This document shows, piece after piece, positions 4,293-13,558 of a stretch of 64,000 nucleotides of DNA. The notes beneath the pieces are model-generated. The model did no database searches. It was not told the DNA's origin and worked only from the letters and a program-made list of their open reading frames with translations. The stretch covers positions 51,661 to 115,660 of the forward strand of contig NZ_JACJOG010000012.1 in assembly GCF_014695375.1 (NCBI RefSeq), given 5' to 3'. The stretch comes from Coleofasciculus sp. FACHB-T130 (GTDB lineage Bacteria; Cyanobacteriota; Cyanobacteriia; Cyanobacteriales; FACHB-T130). A program made the translations under genes and the position numbers. Each line of letters begins with the position of its first letter. The first letter of the stretch is position 1.

Positions 4293-6251
4293 TCAAACTG
4301 TTTGCTTGATGGGCGGTAAATTTAACTCTTTCGACGCTGGATGGAGGGGAAGATAGCGGCGCAGTGTCTTGCGAGTGGCAGCGACACTATAAGCTAAAGC
4401 GATTCCCTCTTGTTCCAGCACACCTAACACTTGTTGGGGGCGATCGCGGTCAACGACGGGTAACTGGTGGAGACCGCGTGCTGCCATCCGGTCTATCGCT
4501 TCTGCTACCGATTCATCAGGGTTTGCATACAGAATTTCAGTGGTACAGATGTCAGCAACTGGCTGATAAGCCAGATGACTGGTTAAATTGTTCGAGACAT
4601 TGCAAAGAACGTTGTTTGTTTCTACTGTTTCAGTAGGAGCGGTAACTGGCGTTCGAGCTGTAGACATTGCTCGATTAATATCCTGTAAAGTGACGATGCC
4701 AATTAACTGCTCGGCATCATCAATGACTAAAGCACTGCGGCAGCGACCATTGGTTAAAGCTAAACCTGCCTCTAATACTGATAAAGAACCACTCAGCATC
4801 AAACCTGGTACTTGCATTGCTTCTGCAACTAACATTTGTTGCAAAATTTCTAACTGCTGGTCTTTCTCCACATTGAGTTCCAGCTGTTGGAGATTTTGAC
4901 CTTTCGTTGGCGCTGACTTAAAGCGCTCCACCAGCCAAATGCTCAAACCGACTGCTGCCATCAGCGGCAAAACAATCCGGTAGTCGCGCGTTAGCTCAAA
5001 CATCAACAGTATGGCTGTCAGGGGTGCCCTAGCGCTGCCAGCAAGAACGGCTGCCATTCCCACCATTGCGTAAGCTGGAGGTGCGGCAATCTGAATTGGT
5101 GCGCCTGGAAGCATCGCTGCCAGAATTTTTCCATACACTGCCCCCAAAGAAGCACCGAGGAACATGGCAGGGGCAAAGATACCCCCCACCAAACCGCTAC
5201 CCAGACTAATCGCCGTCACGATCAGCTTAACCGCTAGCAAGGCGAGGAGTAACCCTAACGGAAAATCCACATCCTGAAGCATGGCGGCAATCGTTTCGTA
5301 ACCGATTCCCAGAATTTGGGGCCATTGCAAAGCAACCAAGCCCAAACAGGCACCACCAATTACTGGACAAAGCGATCGCGGTATCTTTCCCAGCCACTCA
5401 AAACCGGCAATCTGTCCCCGAAAGAAACTTCGAGCCAGTTGAATTGACTGGGTATAGGTCAGCGACACCAAACTTGCTAATACCCCCAATCCCAGATAAA
5501 GCGGTAATTCTAGAGGACTACGGACTTCATAGACGGGCAGCGTAAAAGCTGGTTGGGCACCCAAACCAATCTGAGCAATTAAAGACGCCACAACTGCTGC
5601 CAGCAATACGACGCTAACCGCTGAAGTTGCAAAGGTGGTTCCCAAGACCACCTCTAAGGCAAAGAAAACCCCGGCAATCGGGGCATTAAAACCCGCCGCC
5701 AGACCCGCCGCTGCTCCAGCTCCCAGGAGTAACTGCTGCCTTTCTCTAGAGACTTGCAGCACTTGACCGAGCAGCATTCCAAAATTGCCGCCAATTTCCA
5801 CGCTCGGCCCTTCTGGGCCTAAAGAGGCTCCACTACCGAGGGAAACAGCAGCGGCTACCATCTTGGTGACGGGTCGCAGGGGTAGCAACTCTCGAACGCC
5901 TTGGGCAGCGGCAATCAGCGAAGAAATACTCGGCCCAAAATCGGGCCAAGCAAGACGCATTAAACCGACGATTAATCCTCCCAAAATGGGAATACAAGCT
6001 AAAGTCCAGGCACCCCAGCCTCCAATTATCCCCATCACCCCTTCCAGCATCAAGCTGTGGATGACAGCGATTAAATAGTGAAACGTGACAACGCCCATCC
6101 CGGTGCCGGTGCCAATTAGTACAGCCAACAGCAGGACGACGCTTTCGGGTGAGGGTTCGAGTCGATTGAGAATTTTAGTAAGACGAGAAGCCGGAGAAGT
6201 TGGTGCGGATGATTCCGCCAACAGCACATCTGACAATGGAGTGGCGCTCAT
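4293..6251 (-). CDS. ClC-type chloride channel with C-terminal CBS domain pair
   Basis: The 652-residue protein has the ClC membrane core (about residues 35-450) and two cytoplasmic CBS domains (about 475-630). Core motifs are visible: GPEGPSVEIGG with the gating glutamate at residue 147, the helix with NAPIAGVFFALE at about 189-200, GSGLVGGIFAPA, and RAPLTAILLMFELT near the anion site. The position matching the inner proton glutamate of E. coli ClC-ec1 (E203) is valine (V201), as in ClC channels; this argues for a chloride channel or uncoupled transporter rather than a normal 2Cl-/H+ exchanger. CBS domains usually bind adenine nucleotides. The gene is convergent with cyAbrB. Confidence 0.92.
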   Translation of the reverse strand: MSATPLSDVLLAESSAPTSPASRLTKILNRLEPSPESVVLLLAVLIGTGTGMGVVTFHYLIAVIHSLMLEGVMGIIGGWGAWTLACIPILGGLIVGLMRLAWPDFGPSISSLIAAAQGVRELLPLRPVTKMVAAAVSLGSGASLGPEGPSVEIGGNFGMLLGQVLQVSRERQQLLLGAGAAAGLAAGFNAPIAGVFFALEVVLGTTFATSAVSVVLLAAVVASLIAQIGLGAQPAFTLPVYEVRSPLELPLYLGLGVLASLVSLTYTQSIQLARSFFRGQIAGFEWLGKIPRSLCPVIGGACLGLVALQWPQILGIGYETIAAMLQDVDFPLGLLLALLAVKLIVTAISLGSGLVGGIFAPAMFLGASLGAVYGKILAAMLPGAPIQIAAPPAYAMVGMAAVLAGSARAPLTAILLMFELTRDYRIVLPLMAAVGLSIWLVERFKSAPTKGQNLQQLELNVEKDQQLEILQQMLVAEAMQVPGLMLSGSLSVLEAGLALTNGRCRSALVIDDAEQLIGIVTLQDINRAMSTARTPVTAPTETVETNNVLCNVSNNLTSHLAYQPVADICTTEILYANPDESVAEAIDRMAARGLHQLPVVDRDRPQQVLGVLEQEGIALAYSVAATRKTLRRYLPLHPASKELNLPPIKQTV

Positions 6252-7185
6252 TGATGGAGGTTAACAGGAAAAATGAGAAAAAGCTTAATTTTTATTCATG
6301 ATTTTCATTGTAACTGCGAGCGATTGGCTATCAGCTTTAAAAGGCGAACAATTAGGGAAAATTTTGGGTTTTTAGCCTGCATAAACAGAGCATCCGGCAT
6401 TTTGCTCGTTTTATGGTTTGCATGATGTACAAATTACCTATGTGAAAGCTTAATTTCTATCCATAGCGATCGCTATAGATATACTGTTTGCCACTCTCAA
6501 ACAAAGCCGGTTGAATCAGGAAGCAACCCAACTCGAATCTGGAGCAGCCATTCAACGTCTGTGTGTGTTGGGGTTGTCTGCTGCTGTGCGTCTGCTTCAA
6601 TTGCCCAAAGGCTTGAAGATGTTACTCAATCAGCAACAGTCATCTTCTGTGATTCCCAGCAGCATTGCCTCACAGAGCTTGCACCCACACTTAATGGTCA
6701 CTTAATAGCCGCATCCCAAAACAACGAACCCTTGTCCTCCCCTAAGGTTGGCTTAGGCAACTTAATTGCTCTACTAGACGGTTGACTCGGCTAGTAGAGC
6801 CAACGGACTACCGAAATTGCCACTCTTTTTCAGGATCTGCGACAGTTTGATTCTCTGTGTCTCGGTTGGTCTTTAGCTTCTTGCCTAGATGTGTATACAC
6901 AGTAGTCGCTTGCAAAAGGACGCAGGGGTGGGGTTCCCCCCTATTTCAGCCAACTGAAATAGGTAAATTTTTTCTACAACCGATCGCAACAATAACGCTA
7001 AATTCGGCATTAATCGCTATTAATCGCTGAAATTCAGCTTAAATTACCTTTAGCATTCATTACCACTTCTCTCCTGGGAATTAGGGCACCAGAGGCAACT
7101 TTATTTCTCAAGAACGATACCTCAGCGGGATGAAAAGGAGAAAATACTGCTCTAAGCATTTTTTCATCAAACTCCAAACACTTCT
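6252..7185. other. Gene-poor region upstream of the first GH13 gene
   Basis: No convincing protein gene is visible in these 934 bp. Two short overlapping plus-strand frames at 6511-6785 lack family resemblance and good ribosome binding sites. The region includes a HIP1 site near 6466, a CTACTAG...CTAGTAG inverted repeat near 6770-6800, and a terminator-like hairpin at 6940-6963. AAAAGGAG at 7133-7140 is too far from the GH13 start to be its ribosome binding site. Confidence 0.5.
6940..6973 (+). terminator. Terminator-like hairpin in gene-free DNA (possible small RNA end)
   Basis: A perfect 10-bp stem (6940-6949 with 6954-6963) with a 4-base CCAA-type loop is followed within 5 bases by a run of T (to 6973). 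This is a classic intrinsic terminator on the plus strand, yet no coding gene ends upstream on that strand. It may end an unannotated small RNA transcribed from about 6780-6900. Confidence 0.45.
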
Positions 7186-8838
7186 ATGGCAACTCCGATT
7201 GAATTTAATTTATTTGCTCCCTATAACAATGGAGCTGCTTTAATTGGGGATTTTTCTAACTGGGAAAGCATCCCAATGAAAAAAGGTAATGATGGTTATT
7301 TCCGTACCACAGTTGAACTGGAAGATGGAGTTTATCAATACAAATTCCGTGTTCAATCCAAATCTTGGTTCTTTGAACCGGATCAATGGATAGAGGTAGT
7401 TGACCCCTACGCCACCGATATTGATAATCCCACCCAAAACGGTGTTGTGAGAATTAAAGATGGTGAGCGGATTGTGGATACATACGTTTGGCAACATGAC
7501 GATAAGCCACTGCCAAGCGATCGCGAATTAGTCATTTACGAATTGCACGTTGGCGACTTCTCCGGTGGTGAAGATGATCCCTACGCCCGAGGCAAATACG
7601 AACACGTTGTAGAAAAATTAGATTACCTATGCGAGTTAGGAGTTAATGCCATTGAGTTAATGCCAGTGAAGGAGTATCCAGGGGACCATAGCTGGGGCTA
7701 TAATCCTCGTCACTTCTTTGCTACAGAATCCAGTTATGGCACAACTGAAGGGTTAAAAAACCTAATTGATGAGTGTCATGGTCGTGGAATTCGCGTCATT
7801 ATGGACGGAATTTTTAACCACTCAGAAGCAGAAAGTCCACTGACGCAAATAGACCACGATTATTGGTACCATCATTCTCCGCGCGACCCTGATAATAACT
7901 GGGGGCCAGAGTTTAACTATGAACACTATGATGAAAATCTAGATCTTAAGCCTGCATGGAAGTTTGTTGGCGATACCGTGCGCTTTTGGATTCAGGAATT
8001 TCACATTGATGGCATTCGCTACGATGCAGCCAGACAAATTGCCAACTACGATTTCATGCACTGGATTGTTCAGGAAGCAAAAAATGCAGCTGGGCCAAAG
8101 CCGTTTTACAATATTGCCGAACACATTCCTGAAACCCCCAGCATTACGAATGTAGATGGACCAATGGATGGCTGCTGGCATGACAGTTTCTATCACTGCA
8201 TTCTAGAACATATCTGCGGCGATACCTTTGACTTAGAGCGTCTCAAGGATGCCATTGACTGCAAGCGGCAAGGCTTCATGGGTGCTACGAATGTTGTGAA
8301 TTACCTGACGAATCACGACCACAATCATGTTTTAGCTGAGTTAGGCGATCGCGGCATTTTGGATGAAGAAGCATTTAAGCGGAGAAAGTTAGGTTCTGTC
8401 ATCAATATGACCGCTGTCGGCGTACCTCTGCTGTGGATGGGTGAAGAGTTCGGAGAGTATAAATACAAAACAACTGAACAAGCAAAAATTGATTGGACGC
8501 TCTTAGGTCATGACCTCAATCGCGGGATGTTTGAGTTTATCAAAGGCTTGATTCATCTCCGTAAAAATAATCATGCCCTCTACACCGAAAATATTGACTT
8601 TATCCATGAAGATCCAGAAGCAAAGGTATTAGCCTACAGCCGCTGGAATGGCGAGGGTTCTCGTGTTGTCGTTGTTGCAAACTTCTCTGACAATTTCCTA
8701 GGAGGCTATCACGTTCCTAACTTCCCCGAAGCAGGAACCTGGCACGAATGGACTGGCGATTATGATGTCGAAGCAGGGGAGGATGGCATCCAGCTCGACT
8801 TAGGAAGTTACGAAGCCAAAGTATTAGTTTGGCAGTAA
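7186..8838 (+). CDS. CBM48-GH13 alpha-glucan-active enzyme, copy 1
   Basis: The 550-residue protein has an N-terminal CBM48-like module (about residues 1-95: GAALIGDFSNW, DGVYQYKF), a GH13 catalytic barrel (about 115-450) and a C-terminal beta domain (470-550). The catalytic residues are all present: nucleophile D280 in GIRYDAA, acid/base E312 in NIAEH, and the transition-state Asp D378 in TNHD; conserved region I is MDGIFNH (206-212). It acts on alpha-1,4/1,6-glucan. It is shorter than true GlgB (about 630-770 residues), and the exact activity (branching, amylase, or trehalohydrolase-like) cannot be read from the sequence. A paralog lies 1.1 kb downstream. Confidence 0.88.
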   Translation: MATPIEFNLFAPYNNGAALIGDFSNWESIPMKKGNDGYFRTTVELEDGVYQYKFRVQSKSWFFEPDQWIEVVDPYATDIDNPTQNGVVRIKDGERIVDTYVWQHDDKPLPSDRELVIYELHVGDFSGGEDDPYARGKYEHVVEKLDYLCELGVNAIELMPVKEYPGDHSWGYNPRHFFATESSYGTTEGLKNLIDECHGRGIRVIMDGIFNHSEAESPLTQIDHDYWYHHSPRDPDNNWGPEFNYEHYDENLDLKPAWKFVGDTVRFWIQEFHIDGIRYDAARQIANYDFMHWIVQEAKNAAGPKPFYNIAEHIPETPSITNVDGPMDGCWHDSFYHCILEHICGDTFDLERLKDAIDCKRQGFMGATNVVNYLTNHDHNHVLAELGDRGILDEEAFKRRKLGSVINMTAVGVPLLWMGEEFGEYKYKTTEQAKIDWTLLGHDLNRGMFEFIKGLIHLRKNNHALYTENIDFIHEDPEAKVLAYSRWNGEGSRVVVVANFSDNFLGGYHVPNFPEAGTWHEWTGDYDVEAGEDGIQLDLGSYEAKVLVWQ

Positions 8839-9205
8839 TCGAAACTTGCTAAAGCCTTGAACAGTAGCTTCTCTTTGCCGCCCTTAAAAAAGCAAAAAAC
8901 TACTGTGTCTATACAGTGAACCTGCCAGTCTCGTTTTACTCCCCGTTAGCCGCTGCGCTAATGCTCTGCTATGGCGCAGCGTGGATTGGGGAATTGAATT
9001 ATTCGTTAATATACTGCCTCACAACTCGAACGGTATTAAATGGATAGGTTTAGGAAAACAATTATTTCCTAAAAGAAGTATTGATTAGAGCCTTGCTTTT
9101 TAAGAAGCGAAGTTTCAACCCTTACTAGAGGTAAGAGCCGAAACCCATAAGGCTAATGAAGCAACAACTCTATTAGATACATTGCCTAAAAATCAGTGGA
9201 TAATT
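8839..9205. other. Intergenic DNA after the first GH13 gene
   Basis: This 367-bp stretch shows no coding potential I trust. It contains an imperfect inverted repeat around 8948-8985 (GCCGCTGCGC...GCGCAGCG) that could terminate the GH13 transcript, but no clear T-run follows. Confidence 0.35.
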
Positions 9206-9439
9206 TTAAGCACTTTTCAGTTGCTGGCTCTGCGTACTGGGTGCTAAAGCCCAACCTTCGCATCTTAATTTTTGGTAGGTTGCCCAACCCTTAGAACCGC
9301 CTGGAACTGGATAGTCTGGTACAGCATATTCGGGAAAAGCCGTATAAGGTCGCCACGGTTGATTGGGTGCAGTTCGTAAATGCAACAACTTTTCTCCACT
9401 GACTCCCATCGCTGGCAACCAACACATTTGTTTCAACAT
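9206..9439 (-). CDS. Small protein of unknown function (77 aa) with strong ribosome binding site
   Basis: I do not recognise this family. The 77 residues are rich in Pro, Trp and Tyr, with VPDYPVPGGSKGWATYQKL near positions 41-60 and two cysteines (6 and 59). There is no clear membrane segment, and it looks like a small structured or complex-bound protein rather than random translation. The ATG at 9437-9439 has AAGGAG seven bases upstream, one of the best Shine-Dalgarno sequences in the window. The 31-codon membrane ORF starts just upstream on the same strand (63 bp gap), so the two probably form an operon opposite the two GH13 genes. Confidence 0.6.
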   Translation of the reverse strand: MLKQMCWLPAMGVSGEKLLHLRTAPNQPWRPYTAFPEYAVPDYPVPGGSKGWATYQKLRCEGWALAPSTQSQQLKSA

Positions 9440-9502
9440 TTGAAACTCCTTAATTCAACTTAGAAATAATTGATTAATCAGACAATCTCTTTCTAGGAAA
9501 AA

Positions 9503-9598
9503 CTAGATAGTAACTGCTGCAAAGCAGTAAGCAAGCATGATAAATGCAAGACCGAGACTAAGAGTAGAAAGTAGGGGAATCCATTGTAATGTACTCAT
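9503..9598 (-). CDS. 31-residue single-span membrane micro-protein
   Basis: The ATG at 9596-9598 is preceded by AAAGGAG, with six bases between. It opens a 31-codon frame ending in TAG at 9503-9505. The product starts MSTLQWIPLLSTLSLGLAFI and is almost wholly hydrophobic, enough for one membrane helix with short ends. In size it resembles the tiny subunits of photosynthetic complexes (Pet, Psb, Psa), but I cannot match it to PetG, PetL, PetM, PetN, PsaM or PsbM. The strong ribosome binding site, the sensible membrane profile and the closely following 77-codon gene argue that it is real. It is divergent from the second GH13 gene. Confidence 0.6.
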   Translation of the reverse strand: MSTLQWIPLLSTLSLGLAFIMLAYCFAAVTI

Positions 9599-9929
9599 CT
9601 TCAGCTCCTTTGAGCTGTTATTTATGACCCGATCTTCCCTATTCATCCCTGAATTGACATCTCTCGCTAGCCTTATTTGCAGTCTTTTTAAACCTATCTC
9701 TTAAAGTTTAGAAAATAGTTTTTGTCTACTTCTCCAGATATAAAAATCCGGAAGTTAGTTAATTTTGTTTTTGAAGATACAAACTTGATTAATGTTCTGC
9801 TATTTCTCAAGATAGATAATTCAGTATAATTCATTACTAAACTTTAAAATTATAAATGCAGGCTTTAAAAATGTTTGCAAAGAACCATTGGTCAACTAAG
9901 TAAGCGAATCTACTTCATTAAAAGCTTTT
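9599..9929. promoter_or_regulatory. Divergent promoter region between the micro-ORF operon and GH13 copy 2
   Basis: These 331 bp are AT-rich. A perfect TATAAT (9825-9830) lies about 100 bp before the GH13 start, with no good -35 box at the usual distance. Two 11-base sites, TTAAAGTTTAG (9701-9711) and its exact reverse complement (9837-9847), flank the centre in inverted orientation. They may be operators for one regulator acting on both transcripts. Confidence 0.4.
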
Positions 9930-11597
9930 ATGGCAGCAGTCGAATTCAATTTATTTGCTCCTCGCAACCAAGGAGCGGCGTTAATCGGCTCTTTTTCTAA
10001 CTGGAAAAACATTCCAATGGAAAAAGGTGAGGATGGATATTTCCGAACCCAGGTAGACTTGGAGGATGGCATTTATCAATATAAATTTCGAGTTCAATCG
10101 AAAAGCCCAAAATTTGAACCCGATCAATGGGTGGATGTAATCGACCCATACGCTACAGACGTTGATGAAGCAAGAGGCCACAGTGTCGCACGGGTCAAAG
10201 ATGGGAAGCGAATTGTTGATACTTACGTTTGGCAGCATGACGATACGCTCTTGCCAGACAATCACGAATTAGTCATCTATGAAATGCACGTTGCAGATTT
10301 TTCCGGTGGTGAAGATGACCCACACCAGCGAGGCAAATACCAAGACGCGATCGCTAAGTTAGATCATTTGAGCGAACTCGGAATTAATGCCATCGAATTG
10401 ATGCCAGTAAATGAGTATCCCGGTGATTACAATTGGGGCTATACAGTCCGCCACTACTTCACTACAGAATCCAGTTACGGCTCCACAGAAGATTTGAAGC
10501 GGTTTATTGACGAGTGTCATGGTCGAGGCATTCGCGTTTTCATGGATGGGATTTATAACCACACAGATGAAGAATGCCCGTTAATGCTGATTGACCGGAA
10601 TTACTGGTACTACGAGCATATGCATTATCCAGAAGACCCGGGTAATTACTGGGGACCAGAATTTAACTACGACAACTACGACGAAAAGTTGGATGTTAAG
10701 CCTGCTTGGAAATACGTCGGAGATGTGGTGCGTTTCTGGGTTCAGGAATATCACGTTGATGGGATTCGCTTTGATGCCGTGCGCCAATTGGCAAATTATG
10801 AATTTTTGGATTGGCTTGCGAAGCAAGCCAAGAAAAATACTGCTCTTAAGCCGTTCTACAACATTGCCGAACATATTCCTGATACCAAAACCGTAGTTTA
10901 TCCAGAAGGTCCCCTGGATGGTTGTTGGCATGAAAGTTTTCGCTACTTTGTGCTTCCACATATTTGTGGCGAAATGTTTGAATTAGAAAAACTGAAGGAA
11001 GTTTTAGATCCCAGAAGGCAGGGTTATACGGCTGCTACGAATGTAGTGAATTATTTGGCAACTCACGACCGCCAACGTTTGATGAGAGAATTAGGCGATC
11101 GCGGGATTTTTGACAAAGCCGCATTTGGCAGAGCGAAGTTAGGAGCTGTTTTGTTAATGACGGCGGTAGGTGTGCCAATGCTCTGGATGGGAGAAGAGTT
11201 TGGAGAATACCAGCGCAAAAGTGAAAACGTGACTCAGCCAAAGAAAATTGCTTGGCCTTTGTTGTCACAAGACTTAAATCAAGATTTGTTTGAGTATTAC
11301 AAAAAGTTAACCGCTCTCCGGAAAGAAAATCCAGCTCTTTCTAGCGATAACATTGAGTTTTTTCACGAAAATCCAGAGGCAAAAGTTTTGGCGTACTACC
11401 GTTGGAACAAACCCGGTTCCCGTGTGGTTGTTGTGGCGAATTTCTCAGATAAGTCTCTGTCAGGGTATCGCATTCCTAACTTCCCATCCTCTGGGACGTG
11501 GCAGGATTGGATGAATAACTCCCGCATCGAAGCTGGAGAGGATGGCTCTCTAGTTGACTTGCCAGAGTACGAAGCGAAGGTGTTTGTCTGTCAGTAA
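9930..11597 (+). CDS. CBM48-GH13 alpha-glucan-active enzyme, copy 2
   Basis: This 555-residue paralog of the gene at 7186-8838 has the same order: CBM48-like module (1-95), GH13 barrel (115-455), C-terminal beta domain. The catalytic residues are D282 (GIRFDAV), E314 (NIAEH) and D380. Before the last one, the usual Asn-His-Asp is Thr-His-Asp, a change from copy 1 in a conserved region that lines the active site. The two proteins are alike over their whole length, so they arose by duplication. The start ATG follows an AT-rich leader without a strong ribosome binding site. Substrate or linkage preference may differ from copy 1. A 16-bp hairpin follows the stop. Confidence 0.88.
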   Translation: MAAVEFNLFAPRNQGAALIGSFSNWKNIPMEKGEDGYFRTQVDLEDGIYQYKFRVQSKSPKFEPDQWVDVIDPYATDVDEARGHSVARVKDGKRIVDTYVWQHDDTLLPDNHELVIYEMHVADFSGGEDDPHQRGKYQDAIAKLDHLSELGINAIELMPVNEYPGDYNWGYTVRHYFTTESSYGSTEDLKRFIDECHGRGIRVFMDGIYNHTDEECPLMLIDRNYWYYEHMHYPEDPGNYWGPEFNYDNYDEKLDVKPAWKYVGDVVRFWVQEYHVDGIRFDAVRQLANYEFLDWLAKQAKKNTALKPFYNIAEHIPDTKTVVYPEGPLDGCWHESFRYFVLPHICGEMFELEKLKEVLDPRRQGYTAATNVVNYLATHDRQRLMRELGDRGIFDKAAFGRAKLGAVLLMTAVGVPMLWMGEEFGEYQRKSENVTQPKKIAWPLLSQDLNQDLFEYYKKLTALRKENPALSSDNIEFFHENPEAKVLAYYRWNKPGSRVVVVANFSDKSLSGYRIPNFPSSGTWQDWMNNSRIEAGEDGSLVDLPEYEAKVFVCQ

Positions 11598-11628
11598 CCG
11601 AATCTATTGCTTGGAAGAATCTTTCAAC

Positions 11629-11664
11629 TCAAGGAGGGACAATTGATAAATTGTCCCTCCTTGA
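11629..11664 (+). terminator. Perfect hairpin after GH13 copy 2
   Basis: Arms of 16 bases (11629-11644 and 11649-11664) pair perfectly around a GATA loop, 32 bp after the GH13 stop codon. There is no T-run downstream, so it may act as an mRNA-stabilising or weak terminator structure. Confidence 0.6.
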
Positions 11665-11792
11665 CGTATGGCGTCTCTACAACTCTTATGCCGTGATATC
11701 CTGATTTTTGCAAGCTACTTCCCCACGGTGTGCAAACTTTGGGGTTGGAGTTTTTTAGTCCACAATCTCACGTTGATAGCAGCATATCTGCA

Positions 11793-12362
11793 ATGTTCTC
11801 ATCCCAACCCCCTGAAGAGAATGGGTCTTCCGTCCAAACCGTCTCGTTGACGGATGAATCCGGGCGATCGCTTAGTTGTTACATTGAGCATTCCATAGAA
11901 GTAGATGGTGAAGAATACGTCATCCTCCTGCCGGTAGATTCACCTGTAGAAATTGTGGCGTGGGACGAGGAGAAGGAGGAGGAAGAAGCCACCTTAGTCG
12001 AAGACGACGCCGAAATTGACGAAGTTTTTCCCACGGCTCAAGCAGTCCTGGCAGAGCGGAATCTCGCCTTAAAGCGAACCGCATTTGCTCTGACTGTTGC
12101 CGGTGAACTGCCTGCGGTTGAAGAGGAAGAAATCCTCACCCTGGAAATCGAAGATGACGATACTCAGCTCGAACCAGAGGAATTTCAGTTTCTAGCCAGC
12201 TTTTATCACAAAGAACAAGAATACACAATATACACGCCTCTCGATCCGCTGCTATTGTTTGCGCGGATTAATAGTGCGGGTGAACCAGTGCTACTTTCCC
12301 CTGAGGAATTTAAAAAAGTGCAACCGCTGCTGGAAGATCAGCTATTTGATGAAATGGAATAG
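11793..12362 (+). CDS. DUF3727 / DUF1292-like cytoplasmic protein
   Basis: The protein is about 189 residues from the ATG at 11793; the frame is open further upstream to a GTG at 11730. The N-terminal part has the DUF1292-like pattern (LTDESGRSLSCYIEHSIEVDG then YVILLPVDSPVEI). The C-terminal part matches the cyanobacterial/plastid DUF3727 module, ending in ARINSAGEPVLLSPEEF. It is strongly acidic and has no signal or membrane segment. In plants a related domain occurs in chloroplast proteins, but no defined function is known to me. It lies directly upstream of mltG on the same strand, an arrangement I believe recurs in cyanobacteria. Confidence 0.8.
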   Translation: MFSSQPPEENGSSVQTVSLTDESGRSLSCYIEHSIEVDGEEYVILLPVDSPVEIVAWDEEKEEEEATLVEDDAEIDEVFPTAQAVLAERNLALKRTAFALTVAGELPAVEEEEILTLEIEDDDTQLEPEEFQFLASFYHKEQEYTIYTPLDPLLLFARINSAGEPVLLSPEEFKKVQPLLEDQLFDEME

Positions 12363-12365
12363 GTA

Positions 12366-12443
12366 AAGAATTAAAAATTAGAAATTGAAAATTAAATATG
12401 AAGAATTTTCTTTTTTTAATTTTTAATTTTGCCTTCTTAATTC
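12366..12443. repeat. AT-rich inverted repeat at a gene border
   Basis: The spacer between the DUF3727 gene and mltG consists of ATTAAAAATTA-type motifs on the left and their complement (TTTTTAATTTTTAATTTT) on the right. Similar motifs border other genes at 48959-49020, 49981-49996 and 52373-52420, so this looks like a dispersed low-complexity border repeat that can form a hairpin. Confidence 0.5.
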
Positions 12444-12472
12444 CATGACAGCGGTTGTTACCCGCAATCAAA

Positions 12473-13558
12473 ATGAAAGCAATCCAACGCATCTCCAAAT
12501 GGACGTTTTATCTCGCCTTAATCCCAGCAACGCTCGGACTCTGTGCATGGCAGGGTTGGGCGTGGTGGAGCTGGGCGAGTGCGCCCCCCGTTGCCGAAAC
12601 TCAACCGTCAGCGAATGCTGGAAAAGATACATCAGTGCTAATCCGGATTCCTCAAGGAACCTCGGCGCAGCAGATAGGGCGCGATCTAGAAGCAGCAGGG
12701 TTGATTCGCTCCGCTGATGCTTGGAAGCTATGGACGTTTTGGTTGGACTTGCAAAAGCGACCGGGTGGGTTTAAAGCTGGGACTTACCAGTTGTCACCCA
12801 CCCAGCCGCTGCCAGCGATCGCTGATAAAATTTGGACGGGCGATGTCGTGCAGCTTTCCTTCACAATCCCTGAAGGATGGTCGCTTCAGCAAATGGCGGC
12901 TTACTTTGAATCTCAGGGATTTTTCAAAAGCGAAGAATTTCTCACTGCCGCAACTCAGATTCCCAAAGACCAGTATCCTTGGCTACCTGCGGATTTGCCT
13001 TATTTAGAAGGTTTTTTGTACCCGGATACCTACAAGCTAAATAGCGATCGCATCACCCCCCAAGCCATCATCAAACAAATGCTAGATCGCTTTGAACAGG
13101 TGGCACTCCCCATCTATCAACAAGCGCCAAACAAAACCCAGATACCTCTTCTTCAATGGGTGACATTGGCTAGTATTGTCGAAAAAGAGGCAGTGATTCC
13201 GGTCGAACGCCCTCAGATTGCTGGTGTGTTTACACAACGCCTTCAGAAAGGGATGAGACTGGAATCCGATCCAACAGTTGAGTATGGACTCGGTATTCGG
13301 CAAACAGCGGATCAGCCCTTAACTTTGGCTCAGGTGAGGACAGCCTCCCCCTACAATACTTATCTCAACGCAGGATTGCCCCCAACTCCCATCGCCAGCC
13401 CTGGCTTAGGAAGTCTCAAAGCCACTCTCAATCCTGAAAAAACAGACTACCTCTTTTTTGTGGCTCGCTACGATGGCACCCATGTGTTTAGTCGGACGCT
13501 ACAAGAACACCAAGCCGCTACAAACGCGATTCGCCAACAACGGCAACAAAGCCGCTAA
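12473..13558 (+). CDS. mltG: Endolytic murein transglycosylase MltG
   Basis: MltG cuts nascent glycan strands at the inner membrane and is thought to release or terminate them. The 361-residue protein has an N-terminal membrane helix (about residues 8-30), a LysM-like segment (RIPQGTSAQQIGRDLEAAGLI) and the YceG catalytic domain. The catalytic glutamate is E237 in ASIVEKEA; downstream landmarks are GMRLESDPTVEYGLG, SPYNTYLNAGLPPTPI and SPGLGSLKA. The ATG at 12473 puts the membrane helix close to the N-terminus. An in-frame TTG at 12455 is less likely. The YqeG phosphatase gene follows on the same strand, as in many cyanobacteria and Firmicutes. Confidence 0.93.
   Translation: MKAIQRISKWTFYLALIPATLGLCAWQGWAWWSWASAPPVAETQPSANAGKDTSVLIRIPQGTSAQQIGRDLEAAGLIRSADAWKLWTFWLDLQKRPGGFKAGTYQLSPTQPLPAIADKIWTGDVVQLSFTIPEGWSLQQMAAYFESQGFFKSEEFLTAATQIPKDQYPWLPADLPYLEGFLYPDTYKLNSDRITPQAIIKQMLDRFEQVALPIYQQAPNKTQIPLLQWVTLASIVEKEAVIPVERPQIAGVFTQRLQKGMRLESDPTVEYGLGIRQTADQPLTLAQVRTASPYNTYLNAGLPPTPIASPGLGSLKATLNPEKTDYLFFVARYDGTHVFSRTLQEHQAATNAIRQQRQQSR

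Follow-up and report, generated by a model that had tools for sequence, protein, structure and literature searches.

Between two genes for GH13/CBM48 alpha-amylase-family proteins of Coleofasciculus sp. FACHB-T130 lie two very small open reading frames (ORFs) on the opposite strand. The locus raises the question of whether these ORFs are genuine genes and, if so, in which process such a pair of small proteins could take part. The whole stretch of DNA that was analysed, here called the window, is 64,000 nucleotides long.

The upstream ORF (9503–9598, minus strand) has 31 codons and its product, MSTLQWIPLLSTLSLGLAFIMLAYCFAAVTI, is a hydrophobic peptide of 31 aa; the downstream ORF (9206–9439, minus strand) has 77 codons and encodes a conserved cyanobacterial protein. 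The flanking GH13/CBM48 paralogs, 65% identical to each other, are both on the plus strand: the first (7186–8838) is convergent with the pair, and the second (9930–11597) is divergent from it, with a 331-bp intergenic region in common. AAAGGAG precedes the ATG of the peptide gene and AAGGAG that of the 77-aa gene, and the spacing between the two genes is 63 bp, exactly as given in the preliminary description of this DNA. The matches to the anti-Shine-Dalgarno (SD) sequence amount to 7 nt for the peptide and 6 nt for the 77-aa gene, whereas a 6-nt match is reached by one of the 43 window ORFs of at least 150 aa, taking for each the best start within the first 40 codons; the SDs are thus better than those of most genes here, as had been claimed. 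However, intergenic DNA resampled by a Markov model yields on average 1.2 ORFs of 25–80 aa with an SD match of at least 6 nt per window, and the probability of finding at least two is 0.35. SD quality alone is therefore no proof, and conservation must carry the claim.

Conservation does so. Among 60 relatives searched, the nearest genomes contain clear homologues of the peptide at the same place, with an identity of 90% in genome G001 and of 63% in G002 and G005; for the 77-aa protein, the corresponding values are 96% in G001 and 79–80% in G002 and G005. Between the FACHB-T130 gene and that of G001, the 77-aa gene has a dN of 0.017 and a dS of 0.32 (dN/dS 0.05). For the peptide, the eight informative pairs give dN/dS ratios of 0.15–0.24 (five pairs) and 0.29–0.47 (three pairs), and the excess of synonymous changes has a combined P of 1e-6 over four non-overlapping pairs. 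A longer in-frame start of the peptide gene is present (47 aa, 9503–9646), but this extension is not conserved: G002 and G005 have an in-frame stop just before the ATG, and the 31-codon start is therefore the conserved one. Order, frame and start are thus all conserved in relatives. These substitution patterns indicate that purifying selection acts on both genes; because the pair is conserved in relatives with dN/dS below 1 for both members, it stands above chance, and on these grounds both ORFs are genuine small genes. In G003, which belongs to the same family of genomes, neither gene was found.

The two families differ in extent. The peptide is present in 28 of the 388 genomes sampled in the order (E ≤1e-3, profile of 11 peptides), a count that takes in the genomes that supplied the 11 rows of the profile. 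With a profile of 22 peptides, 7 of 388 genomes of the class are matched, including two that do not belong to the order. The lengths of the 22 aligned members range from 29 to 39 aa, and they share a pattern close to [QS]-W/F-I-P-L-x-S-S-x-x-I-G-x-G-x-I-x-L-A-Y-x-x-A, which reads QWIPLxSSxxIGxGxIxLAYxxAA for the gene of the window. A weaker relative, QLVLLLSSGIIGIGFILxSYxLA, occurs in another context in genus g87 of family f33 (loci L241, L163 and L167); it is likely homologous to the peptide, with marginal scores. In Microcoleus-type loci (L085, L119, L128, L014 and L110), weak, fragment-like matches to the peptide are found at the same spot (E 0.045–1.5), suggesting that loss of the peptide need not entail loss of the 77-aa gene.

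The 31-aa form has one hydrophobic stretch (best 19-residue hydropathy of 2.23) and carries no charged residue. It had been described as a single-span membrane ORF: the hydrophobic stretch is indeed there, and the span itself is a prediction from hydropathy, according to which the peptide would be inserted in the membrane and cross it once. Its length had also led to the suggestion that it could belong to a photosynthetic-membrane complex. It might, for instance, be a minor subunit resembling PetG (cytochrome b6f subunit V, PF02529), with which it shares the length class and a helix pattern P-L-[LI]-S...G. PetG is among the best non-family matches of the peptide profile (E 0.04–0.1 in a set of 30,037 segments supplemented with PetG sequences), and the profile–profile score against PetG is reached by none of 300 column shuffles. 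Nevertheless, the peptide lacks the charged QYKRG tail of PetG, does not hit PetG in a Pfam search at E ≤1, and coexists with a separate PetG in its own genome. The identity with PetG, which these weak matches had raised, fails the reciprocal test, since the PetG model recovers none of 18 peptides at E ≤10, and a canonical PetG is present in 17 of the 18 genomes. With PetG as the subunit covered by this model test, and with a peptide so sporadic in the order and the class and reduced to fragments in Microcoleus-type loci, the photosynthetic link is not upheld, and a role as a PetG-like subunit appears very improbable.

The 77-aa family is far more widespread. Its profile matches 213 of the 388 sampled genomes of the order when distant forms are counted; 331 proteins are matched at E ≤1e-3 and, with a wider profile, 1024 at E ≤0.01. 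Among the matches listed (120 from each of the two sets), none is annotated with a precomputed Pfam domain, and those with a name are called 'hypothetical' or 'uncharacterized'. Neither the 77-aa protein nor the peptide matches a Pfam or NCBIfam model, the one Pfam match of the peptide (E 0.085) being far below the cut-off, and for the 77-aa protein Pfam gives no match even at E ≤1. An alignment of 31 members nevertheless contains 22 invariant positions, and the family is conserved from the N-terminus onwards (MCWL, PWRPY, KGWATYQKL). AlphaFold2 models, computed for 76 aa with one N-terminal residue missing, show a beta hairpin (3–21) and a helix (about 50–60) with pLDDT values of 78 and 80; in the modelled sequence, residue 5 is the conserved Cys. 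Fold searches gave no convincing match to solved structures, and the best hit of a sequence search in the PDB has an E-value of 0.43. The protein is likely soluble. A second copy, 61% identical, is encoded elsewhere in the FACHB-T130 genome (at C39).

How tightly are the two genes associated? In 12 of the 28 genomes carrying the peptide, the next gene downstream, in the same orientation, is the 77-aa gene; counted anywhere in the genome, it is present in 24 of these 28 carriers, as compared to 189 of the 360 non-carriers. The corresponding one-sided Fisher P of 4e-4 is too small, because the genomes are related and hence not independent. The association is also asymmetric: the peptide is missing from most genomes with a 77-aa gene, and for 16 of the 28 peptide genes no 77-aa gene lies within 1.5 kb in the loci examined (that of G164 being cut by a contig end).

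Three contexts of the peptide gene can be distinguished. In type A, it precedes the 77-aa gene and/or is divergent from a GH13 gene. The FACHB-T130 locus and those of G001, G002, G005 and G030 are of this type, as are those of G004, G058 and G151, which lack the 77-aa gene, and that of G007, in which the peptide gene precedes the 77-aa gene and a second GH13 gene was not found on the contig. A cyanophycinase gene and a partial cyanophycin-synthetase-like gene are near the peptide in G004, G058, G151 and G059; in the first three, the cyanophycinase gene and a cyanophycin-synthetase-like gene of 637 aa lie between the GH13 genes, the latter scoring 340 bits in G058, under the cut-off of 850. In type B, the peptide gene lies behind genes for a hybrid kinase and a response regulator (G117, G252, G303, G315 and G380, from the DNA examined), and the 77-aa gene then follows it in G117 and G252, the adjoining copy in G252 containing stops. 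In two of these loci (G315, L181:5377–6349; G303, L182), the peptide gene is situated between the response regulator gene and a gene with a Mo-dependent-nitrogenase C-terminal domain (PF06967), followed by an NYN-domain gene. In type C, an acyl-CoA-dehydrogenase-like gene is found downstream of the peptide gene, on the same strand and within about 0.5 kb, in all six genomes (G051, G025, G067, G008, G018 and G146). A similar ACAAAAGAGAGAGG-like block is present before the peptide in type C loci L184, L187, L188, L223, L224 and L225. The tandem of the peptide and 77-aa genes is thus not limited to one context, occurring in types A and B alike.

The leader of the peptide gene contains several elements. 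A perfect 6-bp hairpin, CAGCUC-AAAG-GAGCUG (9602–9617, minus strand; –9.0 kcal/mol), covers part of the SD. Its letters are identical in FACHB-T130, G001, G002 and G005 and were not seen in the other nine of the 13 type A leaders aligned. Because half of the SD is buried in this hairpin, the peptide site, first described as near-ideal together with that of the 77-aa gene, is likely to be partly masked; the description stands as far as the 7- and 6-nt matches are concerned. The longest identical run between the leaders of G001 and G005 is 13 nt, with a P of 0.075, so that selection on the hairpin is weakly argued for and its conservation could be due to chance. Folding of the whole leader RNA gives z-scores of –0.17 (FACHB-T130), –3.43 (G001) and –1.87 (G005), and the claim of RNA structure is confined to the local hairpin. 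That it could act as a terminator for the plus strand was considered and rejected, the T-rich tail not being kept in G001 and G005. A search of Rfam over 5000–13000 gave nothing at the gathering score, with one chance match to MIR390 (27.1 bits against 77). Further upstream, two stretches line up, with variations, across the 13 type A leaders: AACTTTA (9702–9708, minus strand), about 110 nt before the peptide ATG and present as the exact pattern in 8 of the 13 leaders, and GCTAGCGAGAGATG (9658–9671, minus strand), 60–73 nt before the ATG, which is aligned with the GCTaTAGAGAGAGG forms of the relatives. The latter pattern, when searched as such, is matched in 7 of the 13 leaders, that of FACHB-T130 not being among them.

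The peptide is short, hydrophobic and sporadic; it occurs in three kinds of context, is represented by fragments in Microcoleus-type loci, and has an SD that a hairpin partly occludes. With these features it could also act on membranes independently, as a type I toxin or a stress peptide would, and its place before the 77-aa gene would then be historical. For Microcystis, a type I system has been put forward (PMC12390103). The recurrence of the tandem in 12 genomes spanning types A and B argues against an independent peptide, as does the absence of any charged residue in the 31-aa form. Moreover, no sigma-70-like site for an antisense RNA was detected on either strand of 8830–9960, although this consensus scan is crude and detected no such promoter for the pair either. 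We therefore consider an independent toxin-like peptide unlikely, and retain the reading in which the peptide and the 77-aa protein work together.

The promoter regions give the clearest indication of the regulation of the 77-aa family. They were examined in the best 80 of 206 confirmed 77-aa loci from named genomes; these 80 loci are related to each other. A promoter activated by NtcA (class II) consists of GTAN8TAC followed by TAN3T at about 22 nt (PMC3898017). A perfect GTAN8TAC box is found in the 350 nt preceding the 77-aa gene in 55 of the 80 loci (4.9 expected, sd 2.1), none of these 55 boxes falling inside an ORF of at least 100 aa, and the full form, GTAN8TAC-N19-25-TAN3T, in 48 of the 80 (0.9 expected), with an offset of 22 in 39 instances. 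By comparison, control ORFs of at least 150 aa in the same loci have the full form in 19 of 428 cases. Most of the 77-aa genes sampled thus show both parts of the pattern of an NtcA-activated promoter. When the loci are sorted by neighbour, the full form is present in 40 of 47 with a gamma-glutamyltranspeptidase (GGT) gene, 3 of 6 with ArgZ, 1 of 5 with GH13, none of 8 with cyanophycinase (CphB) and 4 of 14 others; 40 of the 48 full promoters therefore come from one syntenic group, of GGT context and rich in Nostocales, in which the signal is strongest without being confined to it. These motifs suggest that the 77-aa family belongs to the nitrogen regulon of NtcA.

At GH13 or CphB–GH13 loci the picture is less complete. 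A perfect box is present 330–342 nt before the 77-aa ATG in seven genomes (G002, G005, G007, G024, G030, G051 and G025), with the full promoter in only two of them, G002 and G005; G051 and G025 have the box but no peptide at this locus. Among 25 peptide leaders of all contexts, five contain a box (1.3 expected) and one the full form. In the window, the NtcA-like box GTATCTTCAAAAAC (9767–9780, minus strand), which is aligned with the perfect boxes of G002, G005, G007 and G030, has one mismatch to GTAN8TAC. Two perfect GTAN8TAC palindromes are also present on the minus strand, GTAATGAATTATAC (9824–9837), 239 nt before the peptide ATG, and GTAGATTCGCTTAC (9900–9913), 16 nt from the start of the second GH13 gene, both without a minus-strand TAN3T at 19–25 nt. 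Upstream of the pair of the window, then, no perfect box with a correctly spaced TAN3T was found; no perfect box was found in G001, and none within 420 nt of the paralog in the FACHB-T130 genome (L002). As the aligned box is mismatched and the perfect palindromes lack a fitting –10 element, NtcA control of the pair in this genome is a prediction with a blemish.

The position of these boxes between divergent genes suggests another assignment. The NtcA-like box is about 150 nt from the start of the second GH13 gene, and a further perfect palindrome is even closer to it, so that the box in the 331-bp region could serve this gene while the pair would use a promoter of its own (AACTTTA ... GCTaTAGAGAGAGG) responding to another signal. 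Consistently, the leader elements nearer to the peptide align across the 13 type A leaders, also where the box was not found, and a similar AGAGAGAGG block precedes type C peptides. On the other hand, the same box recurs upstream of the 77-aa gene across the 80 loci, 69 of which have no GH13-cluster gene; the –10 element lies on the 77-aa side of the box in 48 loci, against 17 in which it is on the opposite side; and G007 keeps the perfect box even though no second GH13 gene was found on its contig. Assignment of the box to the GH13 gene is a possibility that we take into account but do not favour, and the preferred reading remains that NtcA controls the 77-aa gene and the peptide gene preceding it.

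The neighbours of the 77-aa gene point in the same direction. In the best 80 of the 206 loci, with names taken from one representative per cluster, GGT is found 47 times, DUF1802 44 times and an aldo/keto reductase 34 times, followed by GH13 (11), a partial cyanophycin-synthetase-like gene (9), CphB (8) and ArgZ (6). Of these enzymes, GGT, ArgZ and those of cyanophycin metabolism handle nitrogen-rich compounds, and the GH13 enzymes work on carbon stores. Families f1, f21 and f26 all show the order GH13 – 77-aa gene – GH13, which gives a little more substance to the link with glycogen metabolism first proposed from location; the wider signal of the 77-aa family is, however, nitrogen, given its NtcA-type promoter and its nitrogen-reserve neighbours.

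Distant relatives of 66–70 aa introduce a further possibility. Out of seven, four are located directly before a gene for a CpeS-family bilin lyase, two beside DUF3172 and one beside neither; the CpeS-adjacent ones are on the same strand as the lyase gene (L025:1501–2302, L026:859–1677, L027 and L029:803–1677). This arrangement suggests that these relatives may have a role near the attachment of phycobiliprotein chromophores, and the 77-aa protein itself might then help to make or recycle phycobiliprotein, which is a nitrogen reserve (PMC10504260), instead of serving storage enzymes. Yet no CpeS match at E ≤1e-6 was found in the other loci examined, and the close members of the family adjoin GGT, ArgZ and CphB. 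We consider a phycobiliprotein function of the 77-aa protein rather doubtful, and favour one connected with storage or amino-acid enzymes.

Taking together what can be read from the sequences, namely frames, starts, selection, tandem order in 12 genomes, the promoter pattern of the family and its recurrent neighbours, the most likely reading is a nitrogen-controlled pair of small proteins tied to storage metabolism. Under nitrogen shortage, NtcA would raise an operon of the peptide and 77-aa genes, whose co-transcription we infer from the 63-bp gap and from the lack of a terminator-like site on the minus strand. Several cyanobacterial small proteins regulate by binding enzymes (review: PMC7760959) and, by analogy, the most likely mode of action of the 77-aa protein would be to bind directly and tune a storage or amino-acid enzyme. 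The peptide would be its membrane-side partner, with a translational brake of its own, the SD hairpin possibly gating its translation. We would give an even chance to the proposal that this conserved, likely co-transcribed and likely NtcA-raised pair of small proteins regulates nitrogen and carbon stores under nitrogen shortage. A more specific version is a bicistronic module of the NtcA regulon, in which a soluble 77-aa regulator and a hairpin-restrained membrane peptide would couple the degradation of cyanophycin, arginine and gamma-glutamyl compounds, as nitrogen reserves, to the flanking, glycogen-type GH13 enzymes; this version is speculative and rather improbable.

Such a pair would have known counterparts. 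NirP1 of Synechocystis (81 aa) is also a small cyanobacterial protein with conserved Trp residues; its promoter region has an NtcA box, and the transcript that encodes it was originally catalogued as ncr1071 (PMC10907346). According to its published description, NirP1 is acidic (pI 4.59), is conserved over its last ~50 aa and has a central Cys, three Trp and four beta strands, and it is NtcA-repressed (PMC10907346), whereas the 77-aa family has the box spacing of an activated promoter. With a Cys at position 5 and two strands plus a helix, the 77-aa protein is set apart from NirP1 as there described. It also resembles PirC/CfrA (PMC7760959), PirA (PMC8092223) and GifA (asl2329 in the NtcA table of PMC3898017), small proteins that tune arginine, glutamine or glycogen flux according to nitrogen status. 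Since it has no Pfam match at E ≤1, it has no Pfam family in common with them, and it is by this Pfam result, rather than by sequence comparison, that it is distinguished from the three.

For the peptide, the closest likeness is Norf4 of Synechocystis, which has 31 aa and one predicted span, is conserved and is mildly induced by nitrogen removal (PMC5126843). Norf4 overlaps gap1 and varies very little (PMC5126843); compared by its primer-derived termini alone (MTADQLL and GSFAKGG), it is unlike the 22 aligned members, and the peptide was not retained as a Norf4. In the literature, no title or abstract opening was found to point to either family, a kind of search that nameless families make weak.

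NtcA-linked small proteins are thus already known as a kind, and what is new here is a member with an unusual membrane partner. Cyanobacteria steer the flow of nitrogen and carbon with a growing set of small proteins, and the peptide is an example of a conserved coding sequence below the length accepted by many searches. As for the unnamed 77-aa family, so widespread in the order, it gains a concrete prediction: it would be controlled by NtcA and may have its partners in GGT, ArgZ or cyanophycin metabolism.
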